In this document: piece by piece, positions 15,072 through 60,208 of the stretch
Numbering within the stretch: the first letter of the stretch is position 1
Layout: the number at the start of each line of letters is the position of its first letter
Assembly (NCBI RefSeq): GCF_014204535.1
Contig: NZ_JACHLR010000001.1
Location: 310,001-374,000, forward strand
DNA length: 64,000 nt
DNA from: Novosphingobium chloroacetimidivorans
GTDB lineage: Bacteria > Pseudomonadota > Alphaproteobacteria > Sphingomonadales > Sphingomonadaceae
Direction: 5' to 3'
Program-made: the position numbers and the translations under genes
Notes under the pieces: generated by a model
The model's input: the letters and a program-made list of their open reading frames with translations, nothing else
What the model was told of the DNA's origin: nothing
Databases searched by the model: none

Positions 15072-15616
15072 GCGGCGGTCCTTTCGAATAGAAGCTTGGG
15101 CTCGATGGGGTGCTTGTCGGCACGGGCGCGAGAGGGAACCGACCACGACTTACCCGGCGTCTCAGCGATCATCTTCCATCCAGCGGCCACCAGCGACGTG
15201 CCAGGCTCGCGCTTGAGGATGTATGTGCCGATGCGACGGTACCCGAGGGCGAAGGTTGCCCGTGCAGCTGCGCCGTAGAGAAACGAGCACGCGTTCGGGT
15301 GTCCGGTGGTGCACAGGCGGGTGACTTCTAAAGTCGCGCCATCGTCACGTCGGCGGGCGACAGGACGGCCCACGATCACAACGCCGACCATCTCTTCGCC
15401 TGCGTAAGCTGCAATGCTGAACTTGTGCCCTTGCGGCGGCGTGTGATGGCGATGATGCTCGCGGACGAACGCGGCTGCTTCGTCGAAGGGCAGGGGCTCT
15501 ATCGTGAGCTTCCGAGGTGTGCCGGATCTGGTGCCATCGCCATGTGTGGAACAGTGCGTGAACAGCGCGTCCTGCGCATGCTGTGAGCCGCAGAACTCTG
15601 CGGTTTCGGGCGTCAT
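15068..15616 (-). CDS. XF1762-family phage protein (182 aa)
   Basis: The blocks EHHRHHTPPQGHKF, VGVVIVGRPVARRRDDG, TLEVTRLCTTGHPNACSFLYGAA and GTYILKREPGTSLVAAGW match the pattern of the XF1762 family of phage and plasmid proteins, which look like divergent GNAT-fold acyltransferases. Function is unknown. Residues 1-30 are an extension before the conserved core. ATGA overlaps with both neighbours make it part of the minus-strand chain. Confidence 0.75.
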   Translation of the reverse strand: MTPETAEFCGSQHAQDALFTHCSTHGDGTRSGTPRKLTIEPLPFDEAAAFVREHHRHHTPPQGHKFSIAAYAGEEMVGVVIVGRPVARRRDDGATLEVTRLCTTGHPNACSFLYGAAARATFALGYRRIGTYILKREPGTSLVAAGWKMIAETPGKSWSVPSRARADKHPIEPKLLFERTAA

Positions 15617-32286: not shown

Positions 32287-32301
32287 GTTCGCCAATTGTT
32301 C
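32287..32301 (+). promoter_or_regulatory. LexA box upstream of lexA
   Basis: GTTC-GCCAATT-GTTC is an exact match to the alphaproteobacterial SOS box GTTC-N7-GTTC, 30 bases before the lexA ATG. The second GTTC is also the first half of GTTC-ACGAGAA-GAAC (32298-32312). It implies autoregulation of lexA. Confidence 0.85.
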
Positions 32302-32331: not shown

Positions 32332-33018
32332 ATGTTGACACGCAAGCAGCACGAATTGCTCCGGTTCATCCAGGTCCGCCTTGAGGAGACGGGCATCTCC
32401 CCCAGTTTCGAGGAGATGAAGGAGGCGTTGGATCTCAAGTCGAAGTCGGGCGTCCATCGCCTGATCTCCGCGCTGGAGGAACGCGGCTTCATCCGCCGCC
32501 TGCCGAACCGCGCGAGAGCCCTCGAGGTGCTGAAACAGCCCGAGAACCTTGGCGCACGCGCGCCTGTCCCCCGTGCCGCGGCGAACAGCAACGAGACGGT
32601 ACGTCCGCGGGCTGCCGTCGTGCCTCCGGCGAACGACGTGATCGAGATCCCCTTGCACGGCCGGATCGCCGCTGGCGTGCCGATCGAAGCGCTGGAAGGG
32701 CAAACCACTTTGCCGGTTCCTGCCGCACTGCTGGGTGCCGGAGAGCATTATGCGCTCGAAGTCTCGGGCGACTCCATGATCGAGGCCGGCATCCTCGACG
32801 GTGACTTCGCCCTGGTGAAGCGCACCGCCACTGCTCGCGATGGCGAGATCGTGGTGGCGCTCGTCCACGGTGAGGAGGCAACCCTCAAGTACTTGCGCCG
32901 CGAAAATGGAATGGTCTGCCTCGATCCGGCGAATGCCGCCTACGAGCCGCAGATCTACCACACGGGCGAGGTCGAGGTGCAGGGCAAGCTCGCTGGGCTT
33001 CTGCGCCGCTACAACTAA
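32332..33018 (+). CDS. lexA: LexA repressor (228 aa)
   Basis: An N-terminal winged helix ([19 protein letters not shown]) is followed by a linker and an S24 autoprotease domain with cleavage pair Ala114-Gly115, nucleophile Ser148 (VSGDSM) and Lys163. Starts at ATG 32332 with AGGAGG eight bases upstream. It represses the SOS regulon, including itself through the box at 32287 and probably the radical-SAM gene at 59129. Confidence 0.96.
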
Positions 33019-53403: not shown

Positions 53404-55056
53404 TCACATGTTCGGGTAGTTGGGCCCGCCGCCGCCCTCGGGAGCGGTCCAGACGATGTTCTGGCCAGGATCCTTGATGTCGCAGGTCTTGCAGTGCACG
53501 CAGTTCTGCGAGTTGATCTGGAACTTCACACCTCCGGTCGCCTCGTTGGGCACGTACTCGTAGACGCCTGCCGGACAGTAGCGCGTCGAGGGCCCGCCAT
53601 ACACCGGCAGCTCGGTTTCGAGAGGGTAATCCGGGTCCTTCAGCACGAGGTGGACCGGCTGATCCTCTTCGTGATTGGTGAACGAGTACGACACGCTCGT
53701 CAGGCGATCGAAGGTCAGCACGCCATCGGGCTTGGGATAGGCGATCGGGCGGAACAAGTCGGCGCGCTTGGTCGCCGAGGCATCGGTGTGGTGCTTCATC
53801 ACCGGGAACGCCGGCAGCTTGAGGTAGCGCAGCCACATGTCGATGTCGGCCAAGGCCGAGCCGAACAAATCGCCATGGAACTTGGCGGTGAGCGGCTCGG
53901 CATTCTGGACCTGTTTCAGCTCCTTGGCGATCCAGCTGTCGCGCAGCGCCGCGTCGTATTCGTCGAGGCTGTCCTGCTCACGCCCGGCCGCGACCGCGGC
54001 GGCGATCGCCTCCGCCGCCAGCATGCCGCTCTTCATCGCGGTGTGCGTGCCCTTGATGCGCGGCACGTTGACGAAGCCCGCCGAACAGCCTGCGAGCACG
54101 CCGCCCGGGAACGCCAACTTGGGCACCGACTGCCAGCCGCCCTCATTGATAGCACGCGCACCATAGGCCACGCGCTTGCCGCCTTCGAGCAGTTCACGGA
54201 TCGCCGGATGCGTCTTCCAGCGCTGGAACTCCTCAAACGGATAGACGTAGGGGTTCTCGTAATCGAGCGCGGTCACCAGCCCCAGCGCGACCTGGTTGTT
54301 CGCCTGGTGATAGAGGAACGCGCCGCCCCAGGTATTGCTCTCGGACAGGGGCCAGCCCTGCGTATGGAGCACGCGGCCCGGCACGTGCTTGGCAGGATCG
54401 ATGTCCCACAGTTCCTTGATGCCCAGGCCGTAGATCTGTGGCTCGCAATCGGCTTCGAGGTTGAACTGCGCCTTCAGCCGCTTGGTCAGGTGACCGCGCG
54501 CGCCTTCGCAGAACACGGTGTACTTGCCCAACAGCTCCATGCCCGGCTCGAAGTCCGACTTCTCGCTGCCGTCGCGCGCGATGCCCATCACGCCGGCGAC
54601 CACGCCCGTGACCGCGCCATGCTCGTCGAACAGCACTTCCGAAGCGGAGAAGCCCGGGAAGATCTCGACCTCGAGCGCCTCGGCCTGCTCGGCCAGCCAG
54701 CGGCACAGGTTGCCGAGCGACCCGGTGTAGCAACCCTTGTTGGACATGAACGGCGGCATGAACGCGTGCGGGATCGGCAGCTTGCCGGTCTTTGTCAGGT
54801 ACCAGTGCCAGTTATCCGTCACGGGCGTGTCGGCCAGGAAGCAGCCGTCCTCGCGCCAGGTCGGCAGCAGCTCGTCCAGCGCACGCGGATCGATCACCGC
54901 GCCCGAGAGGATGTGCGCGCCGATCTCCGAGCCTTTTTCCAGAACGCAGACGCTGAGCTCCGGATTGACCTGCTTCAAGTGGATCGCGGTCGACAGGCCG
55001 GCAGGGCCGCCGCCCACGATCACCACGTCGAAGGGCATCGATTCACGTGTCGTCAT
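53404..55056 (-). CDS. Electron transfer flavoprotein-ubiquinone oxidoreductase (550 aa)
   Basis: FAD-binding VVIVGGGPAGLSTAIHL (from about residue 11), GSEIGAHILSGAVIDPRALDEL and the C-terminal 4Fe-4S ferredoxin-like part with CPAGVYEY and NCVHCKTCDIKDP. It passes electrons from acyl-CoA dehydrogenases via ETF to ubiquinone at the inner membrane. Start ATG 55056; a second ATG six codons in is possible. Divergent from the UDG-like gene. Confidence 0.95.
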   Translation of the reverse strand: MTTRESMPFDVVIVGGGPAGLSTAIHLKQVNPELSVCVLEKGSEIGAHILSGAVIDPRALDELLPTWREDGCFLADTPVTDNWHWYLTKTGKLPIPHAFMPPFMSNKGCYTGSLGNLCRWLAEQAEALEVEIFPGFSASEVLFDEHGAVTGVVAGVMGIARDGSEKSDFEPGMELLGKYTVFCEGARGHLTKRLKAQFNLEADCEPQIYGLGIKELWDIDPAKHVPGRVLHTQGWPLSESNTWGGAFLYHQANNQVALGLVTALDYENPYVYPFEEFQRWKTHPAIRELLEGGKRVAYGARAINEGGWQSVPKLAFPGGVLAGCSAGFVNVPRIKGTHTAMKSGMLAAEAIAAAVAAGREQDSLDEYDAALRDSWIAKELKQVQNAEPLTAKFHGDLFGSALADIDMWLRYLKLPAFPVMKHHTDASATKRADLFRPIAYPKPDGVLTFDRLTSVSYSFTNHEEDQPVHLVLKDPDYPLETELPVYGGPSTRYCPAGVYEYVPNEATGGVKFQINSQNCVHCKTCDIKDPGQNIVWTAPEGGGGPNYPNM

Positions 55057-55148
55057 GGACTTTCCGGTTCCCAGAGCGCTTGTTCAATCGCGCGATTAAC
55101 TGCTCAAACGCCTTGATTGGTGGAGTGCGGCAGGTCAAGACCCGAGGC

Positions 55149-55880
55149 ATGGGGATCGGAACAAATCCGGATTACGCAGGCGCGATCGCCGCAACGCTCG
55201 ATTGGTGGCGCGATGCGGGCGTGGACATGGCGTTCGAAGACGAGCCACGGTCATGGCTACCGCCTGCCGACGCGGATGCGCGCCACCCGCCCCAGATCGA
55301 ATCACGCCGCAGGGAACCGCAGCCGCAGGCACCCGCTGCGCCCCCGCCGCTGCCTGACACGCTCGAGACGTTCCAGGCCTGGTGGATGACCGCGCCCGAG
55401 CTCGACGGTGGACGCTGCACCGGCCGGGTACCGCCACGGGGCGCGGCTTCACCCGAGCTGATGGTGATCGCCTGCGCGCCCGAGAGCGAGGACCGGGAAC
55501 TCTTGCTGTCCGGACCCGAGGGTCGGCTGGTCGACGCGTTCATCGGTGCATGCGGCCTGGCAGAAGGTCAGGTCTATCGCGCCAGCACCCTGCCCTGCCA
55601 TGCACCCGGCACCGACTGGTCCCCGCAGGCCAACCAGATCGTATCACACGCGCTGATCCAGCACGTTTCGCTTGTCAGGCCCAAGCGGCTGCTTGTGCTC
55701 GGCTTCGTCATCCTGCCGCTGCTGGGCCACGACTCACCTCAAGCCGCTGCCGTTTCACTCACTTTTAACCATGAGGGAGCGACGGTGCCTCTGCTGGCGG
55801 TGCGTAGAGTTCCAGCCGCGTCCTCTCAGGCGCGATGGAAGTCAGCGCTGTGGCAGGCATGGCTCGACTGGACGGCGTGA
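55149..55880 (+). CDS. Uracil-DNA glycosylase superfamily-like protein, divergent (243 aa)
   Basis: The central block VIACAPESEDRELLLSGPEGRLVDAFI aligns in style with the GEAPGxxEDxxGxPFVGxAGxLL motif of family 4 glycosylases, and LVLGFVILPLLG with the later GxxA strand. The catalytic GEAPG is changed to IACAP and the four Fe-S cysteines of family 4 are not evident. The N-terminal 90 residues are Pro-rich. Activity on uracil is therefore doubtful. ATG 55149 is chosen; an in-frame start upstream adds about 34 residues. Confidence 0.65.
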   Translation: MGIGTNPDYAGAIAATLDWWRDAGVDMAFEDEPRSWLPPADADARHPPQIESRRREPQPQAPAAPPPLPDTLETFQAWWMTAPELDGGRCTGRVPPRGAASPELMVIACAPESEDRELLLSGPEGRLVDAFIGACGLAEGQVYRASTLPCHAPGTDWSPQANQIVSHALIQHVSLVRPKRLLVLGFVILPLLGHDSPQAAAVSLTFNHEGATVPLLAVRRVPAASSQARWKSALWQAWLDWTA

Positions 55881-57713: not shown

Positions 57714-58230
57714 TCCGGAACGCACGTTCAAGCCGATCCAGATCGCGCTCCTGACCGTCTCCGACACCCGCGGTCCGGAAAACGACACCTCGGGCGACAT
57801 CCTTGCCGCGCGGATCACCGGCGCCGGCCACACGCTTTCGGCGCGCACCATCGTGCGCGATGACGTGCCCACCCTGGTGACCCAGCTCGAGGCATGGATC
57901 GACGACCGGAACGTCGACGCGGTGATCATTACCGGCGGCACCGGCCTTACCGGCCGGGACGTGACGCCCGAAGCGCTCGACCAGGTCAAGGAAAAGGACA
58001 TCCCTGGCTTCGGCGAGCTGTTCCGCTGGCTCAGCTACAAGACCATCGGCACGTCGACCGTGCAGTCCCGCGCATGCGCCGTCCTTTCGCGCGGCACCTA
58101 CATCTTCGCCCTGCCGGGATCGAACGGCGCGGTGAAGGATGGCTGGGACGGCATCCTGGCCGAGCAACTCGACAGCCGCAATCGCCCCTGCAACTTCGTC
58201 GAACTGATGCCGCGCCTGCGTGAAGTCTAG
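57703..58230 (+). CDS. moaB: Molybdopterin adenylyltransferase-like MoaB/MogA (175 aa)
   Basis: IALLTVSDTRGPENDTSGD, IITGGTGLTGRDVTPEAL and FALPGSNGAVKDGWDGIL are MoaB/MogA signatures. It activates molybdopterin by adenylylation. GTG 57703 inside the end of the transglycosylase gene gives the usual length. Its 3' end overlaps the convergent NAT gene by 4 bases. It is distant from moaC-moeA at 30.5-32.3 kb. Confidence 0.92.
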   Translation: MAVDPERTFKPIQIALLTVSDTRGPENDTSGDILAARITGAGHTLSARTIVRDDVPTLVTQLEAWIDDRNVDAVIITGGTGLTGRDVTPEALDQVKEKDIPGFGELFRWLSYKTIGTSTVQSRACAVLSRGTYIFALPGSNGAVKDGWDGILAEQLDSRNRPCNFVELMPRLREV

Positions 58231-59054
58231 GCGAACAGCGGCAGCCGCATTGCGTCGCCGTCGCTAAGCTCGATCCGGAACACCCGGCGCAAGGTTGCCG
58301 CATAGTCCGCTGCATCTTCGATGGTCCGCCGCTCGACAGTACCGCCCCGATGCAGCGTCAGTTCGCGGTCGGTCATCGAAGCGAAGCCGTCCGGCAGCGG
58401 GATGCTGGCGACATGCAGACTGGTGAAGCGGGTGCCGGCGCGCGTCGAGGTCCAGTGATTGGCTTGCTCGAGATCGTCGGGCGCCACCTCGGACAAGTCG
58501 AACGTGTACTGTGCCTGCCATGGCGCGTCCAAGCCCGGGCAAGCAGCCGCGCATCGCTCCAGCCGCCACTCGCCGGTTAGCGAACCGCATGGCCCCAGAT
58601 GGACCAGCCGGTGCCGCGATCCGTCGGGCAACGCCTGCTCCGCACTGTCCGCGAGTGGCAGGGGCGGCAGGTTGCTCCCACCGAAGCCGGCATCGGCAAG
58701 CCACGGCTCGCCTTCGATCGTAGCGAGCAGGCAGACGTGCGTGCGGGGCGGCACGACGTCAGGCGGAACCATCAACCGCACCCGCGCGAGCAAGGGCCGA
58801 TTGGCGACGCCCAGCACGGCCAGCACGTCGGCGAAGAGGCGGTTATGCTCGAAGCAGTACCCGCCTCGGCATCGCCCGACCAGCTTGTCGAACACGCTGC
58901 CGCTGTCGATCGCAATGCGGCGACCAAGCATGACATCGAGGTTTTCGAATCCGATCGCCAGCCGGTGCGCACCTTGCAACTGCGCTACACCCTGGGCCGT
59001 CGCCGGAGGCGTGTGGTCGAGGCCGATGCGGGTGAGATAGCGGCACAGGTCCAT
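58227..59054 (-). CDS. Arylamine N-acetyltransferase (275 aa)
   Basis: Catalytic triad Cys67 (RGGYCFEHN), His106 (PPRTHVCLL) and Asp121 (WLADAGFGG) sits at almost the canonical 69/107/122 spacing; the N-terminal RLAIGFENLDV is typical. It transfers acetyl-CoA acetyl groups to arylamines or hydrazines. Divergent from the radical-SAM gene with 74 bases between, so the LexA box there might affect both. Confidence 0.92.
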   Translation of the reverse strand: MDLCRYLTRIGLDHTPPATAQGVAQLQGAHRLAIGFENLDVMLGRRIAIDSGSVFDKLVGRCRGGYCFEHNRLFADVLAVLGVANRPLLARVRLMVPPDVVPPRTHVCLLATIEGEPWLADAGFGGSNLPPLPLADSAEQALPDGSRHRLVHLGPCGSLTGEWRLERCAAACPGLDAPWQAQYTFDLSEVAPDDLEQANHWTSTRAGTRFTSLHVASIPLPDGFASMTDRELTLHRGGTVERRTIEDAADYAATLRRVFRIELSDGDAMRLPLFA

Positions 59055-59103
59055 GAGCTGTGATGTATCGCGCGCCGACCCGTCAGAACAGCCTTGATTA
59101 TAT

Positions 59104-59118
59104 GTTCATGGTATGTTC
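59104..59118 (+). promoter_or_regulatory. LexA box upstream of the radical-SAM gene
   Basis: GTTC-ATGGTAT-GTTC is an exact GTTC-N7-GTTC SOS box ending 10 bases before the ATG at 59129, within a TA-rich promoter-like stretch. No Shine-Dalgarno lies between box and ATG, so the mRNA may have a very short leader. Confidence 0.75.
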
Positions 59119-59128
59119 TAGTTGAGCC

Positions 59129-60208
59129 ATGCCGCCGCCAGCGCCGATTACAGGCCGAGGAGCCCAGTCTTCCGACACGTCCAGTCGGTTCAACCTGGCG
59201 TCCAGACTTGCCGACGACGACTGGCGCGATGTGCATGAACTTGTCGATGGGCCTGTGGACAAGCTGCGGACAACCGTCACGCACGAATTTCCGAAGGCAA
59301 TCCTGAACTTCAACACCTCGCCGGACGTGCCGTTCGATCGATCGATCAACGCCTATCGCGGCTGCGAACACGGGTGCATCTACTGTTTCGCGCGTCCGAC
59401 CCATGCGTTTCACGACCTGTCGCCAGGGCTCGACTTCGAGACGAAGCTGTTCGCCAAGCCGGATGCGGCACGCCTGTTGCGCCAGACGCTCGCCAAGCCG
59501 AGCTACCGGGCCGCGCCGATTGCCATGGGCACCAATACCGATCCCTACCAGCCGATCGAGGCACGGTACCGGATCACCCGGGCGGTGCTGGAGGTCTGCC
59601 TGGAAACACGTCACCCCGTGACGATCACCACCAAGTCCGACCGCGTGCTTCATGATCTCGACGTGATTGCAGAGCTTGCGCGGCTCCGCCTGGTCGAGGT
59701 CGGCATCTCGGTGACGAGCCTCGATGCGCGTCTCTCAGGTCTGCTGGAGCCGCGCGCGGCCTCTCCTGCCAAGCGCATCGCGGCGCTGGCACGCCTGGCC
59801 GACGCCGGAGTGCCCTGCCACGTGTCCGTCGCTCCGGTCATCCCTTCGATCACGGACCATCATATCGAGGGCATCCTGAAAGAAGCGGCGGCCGCAGGGG
59901 TGCAAGCCGCGACCTGGATCATCGTCAGGCTTCCGCATGAGGTCGCGCCGCTGTTTCGCGAATGGCTGGAGACGCACTTTCCAGATCGTGCCGGCAAAGT
60001 CATGGCGACGATCCGTTCGATCCGCGGCGGACGGGACAACGATCCGCGCTTTGGCAAGCGCATGAAGCCCGAGGGCGTCTGGGCCGACTTGTTCCGCAGC
60101 CGCTTTGCCATCGCCATGCGTCGCCATGGCCTCTCGCGCCCTACCCTCCAGCTGGACTGCTCGCTCTTCCGCAAGCCTTCCGCCGATGGCCAGCTCTCGC
60201 TGCTGTGA
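59129..60208 (+). CDS. PA0069-family radical SAM protein, SplB/DNA-photolyase-like (359 aa)
   Basis: The radical-SAM cluster is CX3CX2C at Cys79, Cys83 and Cys86 (RGCEHGCIYC), followed by AMGTNTDPYQPIE and TTKSDRVLHDLD typical of the COG1533 (SplB-related) PA0069 family. The biochemical reaction is unknown for this family, though related SplB repairs spore photoproduct. The LexA box directly upstream places it in the predicted SOS regulon, supporting a DNA-damage role. Confidence 0.85.
   Translation: MPPPAPITGRGAQSSDTSSRFNLASRLADDDWRDVHELVDGPVDKLRTTVTHEFPKAILNFNTSPDVPFDRSINAYRGCEHGCIYCFARPTHAFHDLSPGLDFETKLFAKPDAARLLRQTLAKPSYRAAPIAMGTNTDPYQPIEARYRITRAVLEVCLETRHPVTITTKSDRVLHDLDVIAELARLRLVEVGISVTSLDARLSGLLEPRAASPAKRIAALARLADAGVPCHVSVAPVIPSITDHHIEGILKEAAAAGVQAATWIIVRLPHEVAPLFREWLETHFPDRAGKVMATIRSIRGGRDNDPRFGKRMKPEGVWADLFRSRFAIAMRRHGLSRPTLQLDCSLFRKPSADGQLSLL

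Follow-up and report, generated by a model that had tools for sequence, protein, structure and literature searches.

A conserved SOS box and a predicted clamp-docking tail in PA0069-family radical SAM proteins of Proteobacteria

Introduction

That LexA governs SplB-like radical SAM genes has already been predicted or reported (PMC3323433, PMC8565304, PMC7739468, PMC9380542). In 2012, Sanchez-Alberola and colleagues predicted a LexA site at a splB homologue in alpha- and beta-Proteobacteria, a trait that they termed photoreactivation and described as not observed in the gammas (PMC3323433). A second source counts SplB (COG1533) among the SOS-regulated genes of several species, with Cirz 2006 on P. 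aeruginosa as one of its references, and also describes a LexA-linked COG1573-COG4277 repair operon (PMC8565304). Further sources link SplB-like proteins to SOS operons (PMC3765255) and place a radical SAM protein in the LexA regulons of Gram-positive bacteria, Balneolaeota and Streptomyces (PMC7739468, PMC9380542). PA0069 was not found by name in the available text of the P. aeruginosa papers searched for it. The list of Cirz for P. aeruginosa is said to include PA0069 itself.

A different body of work concerns the beta sliding clamp, whose partners bind through a short motif of the form Q-aliphatic-x-[LM]-[FL] or through its six-residue version, Q-aliphatic-x-[LM]-x-[FL]; some of these motifs sit in C-terminal tails (PMC11139829). 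Clamp binders such as Pol II, Pol IV and Pol III alpha are polymerases or other proteins of replication or repair; unlike the PA0069 family considered here, they are not radical SAM enzymes. MutS and ImuB also bind the clamp.

Here we describe a PA0069-family gene in a window of 64,000 nucleotides, the whole stretch of Novosphingobium chloroacetimidivorans DNA that was analysed. Its SOS box is conserved among orthologues, and its product ends in a motif of the clamp-binding type.

Materials and Methods

For the box counts, 300 bases upstream of each orthologue were scanned. The host-family set comprises 50 loci, the window's own included, from 51 genomes over the cut-off (one, G016, was left out). 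The set from other alphaproteobacteria comprises 119 loci, made up of the 30 and 29 best-scoring of two listings and 60 that were hand-picked, one per family where possible; since one locus (L167) duplicates another (L109), box counts use 118 of these and tail counts 119. From other classes of the phylum, 40 of the 49 loci listed over the cut-off were used. A further set of 80 loci was split into 70 alphaproteobacterial and 10 beta/gammaproteobacterial loci from the record titles, and may overlap the other 209. None of these sets is a random sample, and related sequences within them are not independent.

Tails were scanned over the last 20 residues. Besides the published clamp motif, a wider definition was applied that also allows F or I at positions 2 and 4, W, I or M at the end, or Q..[LM]F. 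The background ORFs used as a control were taken mechanically and include non-genes.

Results

The operator site and the SOS regulon of the genome

The first-pass annotation described an exact GTTC-N7-GTTC 10 bases before the start of the radical SAM gene, in a 74-base gap (59055-59128) shared with a divergent arylamine N-acetyltransferase gene. Both descriptions agree with the sequence in letters and positions (Table 1): ten bases (59119-59128) separate the box, GTTCATGGTATGTTC, from the ATG at 59129. The box overlaps the spacer and the second hexamer of a possible sigma-70 promoter that was picked out by eye, and LexA bound there would sit over this promoter. A consensus promoter scan reported none at the same position, which leaves the by-eye assignment weak.

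Table 1. Coordinates of the features in the window
Feature	Position	Strand	Remarks
SOS box (LexA operator) GTTCATGGTATGTTC	59104-59118	+	exact GTTC-N7-GTTC
Possible sigma-70 promoter: TTGATT (59094-59099), 17-base spacer, TCTAGT (59117-59122)	59094-59122	+	by eye
PA0069-family radical SAM protein, 359 aa	59129-60208	+	NF033668, PF04055
CEHGCIYC cluster-binding motif (C79, C83, C86)	59363-59386	+	CxxxCxxC radical SAM motif
C-terminal QLSLL, predicted beta-sliding-clamp binding motif	60191-60205	+	fits published definition
Divergent arylamine N-acetyltransferase	58227-59054	-	PF00797; neighbour, probably outside the system
SOS box GTTCGCCAATTGTTC before lexA	32287-32301	+	exact match
lexA, regulator expected to bind the box	32332-33018	+	TIGR00498 168.5 bits, cut-off 110.95; likely start codon
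Third exact GTTC-N7-GTTC of the window	15549-15563	-	

A single exact box has no significance by itself, since three exact motifs occur in the window against 1.31 expected (three or more in 12 of 100 shuffles) and the whole genome has 137, compared with 122 copies of the reversed pattern. The site at the radical SAM gene has the narrower form GTTCN6TGTTC, which is enriched genome-wide (43 vs 23); sites of this form also precede dnaE2, recA, lexA, uvrA, a UmuD-like and an mmcB-like gene, and another radical SAM gene. The lexA box lies 30 bases before the likely lexA start, and the core SOS genes lexA, recA, uvrA and dnaE2 stand behind exact boxes. Elsewhere in the genome, exact boxes (L236, L238, L232) adjoin an Mfd-like gene (UvrB_inter and MFD_D3), the gene of a DUF6127 protein and a glutathione S-transferase gene, which are possible further SOS genes.

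Conservation of the box among orthologues

A scan of orthologous upstream regions, which the first-pass annotation had proposed as a check on SOS control, supports such control. The radical SAM gene is preceded by an exact forward box in 48/50 host-family loci, the window's own included (47/49 without it), and in 103/118 other alphaproteobacterial loci, against 0/50 and 5/118 for the reversed motif. As a second control, 215-base stretches from the gene bodies hold an exact box in 0/50 and 1/119 cases. The exceptions are themselves often close to the motif: one of the two host-family loci that lack an exact box differs by a single mismatch, as do seven of the 15 other alphaproteobacterial ones, and an eighth of these 15 carries an exact box in reverse orientation. 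The further alphaproteobacterial set gives a similar picture, with an exact forward box in 65/70 loci, none in the remaining five, and the reversed motif in 1/70. The last base of the spacer is T in 139 of 152 boxes, one locus being counted twice. Such recurrence ahead of orthologues exceeds chance by far, so the box represents more than a chance match, and on this sequence evidence the DNA-damage response very probably induces the radical SAM gene. This SOS reading is well supported, yet it is already in print.

LexA of beta- and gammaproteobacteria reads the motif CTGTN8ACAG. Among the 40 loci from other classes, which we take to be beta- and gammaproteobacterial, exact CTGTN8ACAG was found upstream in 26, while the reversed control and the alphaproteobacterial box were found in none. 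The same motif is present in 4/10 of the further beta/gamma loci, namely those of two Pseudomonas species, a Pseudomonas MAG and a Microbulbifer. Neither motif is present in 14/40 and 6/10 loci of the two sets, respectively; hence, SOS control is not universal in these classes. A search of the 80 further loci with an Xanthomonas-type LexA motif returned only matches with at least four mismatches (five in Luteimonas, L299).

The splB gene of the earlier prediction probably belongs to the PA0069 family. Two differences from that account should be noted. The SOS trait was not observed in the gammas there, whereas here it extends to the Pseudomonas and Microbulbifer loci named above; and splB was called a photoreactivation enzyme, whereas the PA0069 family has no conserved counterpart of the key cysteine of spore photoproduct lyase (PMC3323433).

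Gene neighbourhood

The first-pass annotation also noted that the gap serves the divergent acetyltransferase. The acetyltransferase lies upstream of the radical SAM gene in only one of the 50 host-family loci, that of the window itself, so the box is better assigned to the radical SAM gene. The usual same-strand upstream neighbours are a moaB homologue (29 of the 50 loci) and an slt homologue (27), both counts being lower bounds because the flanks span 1.3-2.1 kb. Four genes upstream of the radical SAM gene, a protein encoded at 55047-55880 weakly matches uracil-DNA glycosylase (TIGR00758 at 1e-6, and PF03167, both below cut-off).

Family, fold and cysteines

The assignment of the protein to the PA0069 family, made in the first-pass annotation, is upheld by a score of 453.6 bits against NF033668 over residues 9-359, the curated cut-off being 360. 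NCBI lists this model as 'hypoth_equivalog', with no function given. It exceeds its cut-off in 161/289 genomes of the class and 144/299 of the phylum (the two sets overlap), and the family is widespread in Proteobacteria.

A predicted model of the protein (pLDDT 88.5, pTM 0.87) has spore photoproduct lyase as its nearest match by Foldseek (E 4.3e-9). Fold comparison likewise ranks this lyase first, with Z 20.0 to 4fhf (rmsd 3.2 over 261 residues), the next family reaching Z 15.2. Spore photoproduct lyase (PDB 4fhc; TIGR04070) is thus the closest solved fold, at Z 19.4 to 20.0, and CxxxCxxC is present in both; the PA0069 family differs from it in having a clamp-type tail and no conserved hydrogen-donor cysteine. 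At the level of sequence, TIGR04070 and TIGR03886 give no match to the PA0069-family protein at E 0.001, and TIGR03886 gives none over its cut-off in 193 genomes. A phmmer search of the PDB with the single protein returned nothing up to E 1, and a profile search of the PDB returned just weak radical SAM matches and unrelated chains. Radical SAM enzymes of other functions occupy the lower rows of the fold search, and since the barrel is common to radical SAM enzymes of many functions, the fold makes DNA no more than a candidate substrate.

The three cluster cysteines (C79, C83, C86) are present in 53/53 aligned sequences, the window's own included. Beyond them, no column of the alignment has cysteine in half of the 53 sequences (C128 is found in 16 and C330 in 24), and the hydrogen-donor cysteine of the lyase (C140/C141) is accordingly not conserved. 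Position 135, the likely counterpart of C140 as placed by a common T/S-D motif, is cysteine in 0/53; this residue-level match is tentative, because the profile comparison with the lyase-like pair aligned 165-239 alone. Position 87, which follows the cluster motif and was compared with the tyrosine Y98/Y99 of the lyase, is F in 32 sequences, the window protein among them, and Y in 21. The term 'SplB-related' used by the first-pass annotation therefore holds for the fold and fails for the catalytic hydrogen-donor cysteine.

Elsewhere in the same genome, a separate gene (L334; C21:36189-37217) is nearer to the lyase, with an E-value of 3.9e-57 to 4fhc, a retained donor cysteine and a TIGR04070 score of 267.7 bits, which is below the cut-off of 400. 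It has no clamp tail, and 660 bases searched in both orientations hold no exact box. As judged from these sequence comparisons, it is a far better lyase candidate than the PA0069-family protein. Judged by its predicted model, the PA0069 family resembles a radical SAM enzyme of DNA repair, but is not thereby a spore photoproduct lyase.

The C-terminal tail

The protein ends in QLSLL, a predicted clamp-binding motif. As shown in Table 2, tails of this type are frequent in the family and rare in the controls.

Table 2. Clamp-type motifs in the last 20 residues of PA0069-family proteins and in controls
Set	Published definition	Position 2 left free	Wider definition
Host family	38/50	44/50	49/50
Other alphaproteobacteria	102/119	108/119	114/119
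Other classes	19/40	38/40	40/40
Total of these three	159/209		203/209
Further loci	53/80	73/80	80/80
Background ORF ends (some are non-genes)	5/1175	14/1175	7/1175
Internal windows of the same proteins	0/627	1/627	
Shuffled tails	5.4/209	21.2/209	11.8/209

A QG type (e.g. QGELF) accounts for many of the tails outside the published form. The five- and six-residue forms interchange among PA0069-family tails, as they do in known clamp binders, and Q355 and L358 are each kept in 51/53 aligned sequences. In the 143 proteins in which both could be found, 5 to 26 residues lie between the preceding conserved F and the motif. Model confidence falls sharply at this end of the protein: residues 351-359 have a mean pLDDT of 56, and 357-359 are under 50, against 90 or more in each of the four preceding ten-residue blocks. 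This suggests that the tail is flexible, although the first 40 residues are modelled with low confidence too. The only one of the 50 host-family loci without a clamp-type tail (L009) has an in-frame TGA inside its PA0069-family gene.

Four distant relatives (35-42% identity) were examined out of 77 plasmid records with a match. An actinobacterial one ends in QLRLL, of the published form; another with QEPLF and a Gemmatimonadota protein with QLSLGI fit the wider forms only; and the tail of a relative from Clostridia has no clamp-type motif.

By these features of sequence, the PA0069-family tail bears the marks of a short docking motif, and it probably docks the enzyme onto the sliding clamp. 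If so docked, the enzyme may work on damaged DNA as replication proceeds.

A second SOS-boxed radical SAM family

The second radical SAM gene of the genome behind an SOS box belongs to TIGR03916 (radical SAM linked to uracil-DNA glycosylase), a family separate from PA0069. Its protein (L237 / L320, C15:117291-118522) ends in QLELFAA, has an exact box just upstream and gives a weak helix-hairpin-helix match (PF12836, 20.8 bits, below cut-off). We take the COG1573-COG4277 operon mentioned in the Introduction to represent this family, and the gene on the other side of L237 / L320 is presumably a topoisomerase IB. Among 115 alphaproteobacterial genomes searched, TIGR03916 exceeds its cut-off in only seven, the window's own included. 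All seven loci carry an exact box, in reverse orientation and 25-50 bases before the approximate start, and all seven proteins have a clamp-type tail. Thus, TIGR03916 combines an SOS box with a clamp-type tail, as the PA0069 family does.

No description of a radical SAM enzyme that binds the clamp, or of a clamp-type tail in PA0069, was found among the best-ranked open-licence papers listed. To the extent of this search, three findings are new: the tail of clamp type, the fact that it is conserved, and its reappearance in another SOS radical SAM family.

Discussion

The explanation that best fits these observations, and one that we consider likely to be right, is that the gene encodes a LexA-controlled, clamp-tethered radical SAM enzyme that processes a DNA lesion. 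LexA would bind the conserved box at 59104-59118 and block the promoter of the gene; upon DNA damage, as in the known SOS mechanism, active RecA would promote LexA self-cleavage and thereby induction. The product is predicted to be a radical SAM enzyme with a fold like that of spore photoproduct lyase. Its flexible C-terminal QLSLL, a motif observed and conserved across the family, would dock on the beta sliding clamp, which in turn would bring the enzyme to forks and gaps. There, it may reverse or process a DNA lesion by S-adenosylmethionine radical chemistry. The mechanism of spore photoproduct repair is probably not used, since the hydrogen-donor cysteine is not conserved.

Two alternatives concern the box. 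If it were a chance match and the gene lay outside LexA control, the similar genome-wide counts of the exact motif and its reversed pattern (137 vs 122) would be accounted for; its presence at 48/50 host-family loci, the window's own included, and 103/118 other alphaproteobacterial loci would not, and we reject this idea as scarcely credible given such conservation among orthologues. That the box chiefly controls the divergent acetyltransferase draws on the 74-base gap common to both genes. However, the acetyltransferase is upstream in 1/50 loci whereas 48/50 have the box at the radical SAM gene, and across the alphaproteobacteria an exact box faces forward to the radical SAM gene in 152/169 loci and is reversed in one. 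Since the acetyltransferase is found there in just one host-family locus, this reading too is rejected as extremely improbable.

The other two alternatives accept SOS control and differ in what the enzyme does. It could be a spore photoproduct lyase type that repairs 5-thyminyl-5,6-dihydrothymine, its tail being incidental. The nearest fold speaks for this, as does the 2012 'photoreactivation' proposal for alpha and beta splB (PMC3323433); the argument from the donor cysteine is also tempered by a Clostridium lyase, in which the conserved cysteine is found at another place (PMC5368176). Nevertheless, the cluster cysteines alone are conserved, position 135 is cysteine in 0/53 sequences, neither TIGR04070 nor TIGR03886 matches at E 0.001, and L334 is closer to the lyase, keeps the cysteine and has neither a clamp tail nor an exact box. 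We consider this possibility quite unlikely, and a plain spore photoproduct lyase is rejected in view of the missing conserved donor cysteine and the separate lyase-like gene. Alternatively, the box may be real and the enzyme may act on RNA, protein or a stress metabolite, with the tail binding another partner or forming part of the fold. The radical SAM enzymes of other functions in the lower rows of the fold search would be compatible with this, as would the lack of an assigned function for the PA0069 family. Against it, the tail fits both the five- and six-residue clamp motifs, comes after a segment whose length varies and is modelled with low confidence, and a tail of this type recurs in TIGR03916, a distinct SOS radical SAM family. 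This alternative is unlikely, if deserving of some weight.

Returning to a clamp-tethered enzyme under LexA control, the combination of an SOS box with a clamp-docking tail opens its function to testing, as regards the time of its synthesis, its site of action and its partner. More broadly, Proteobacteria might possess a replisome-coupled arm of SOS repair, in which at least two families of radical SAM enzymes under LexA (PA0069/NF033668 and TIGR03916) reach the sliding clamp through their C-terminal clamp-binding tails and process a lesion other than the spore photoproduct; on this general proposition our judgement is evenly balanced. If it is true, a radical enzyme joins the partners of the sliding clamp, and bacteria may have, besides bypass, a direct way to reverse or process some lesions at the fork.
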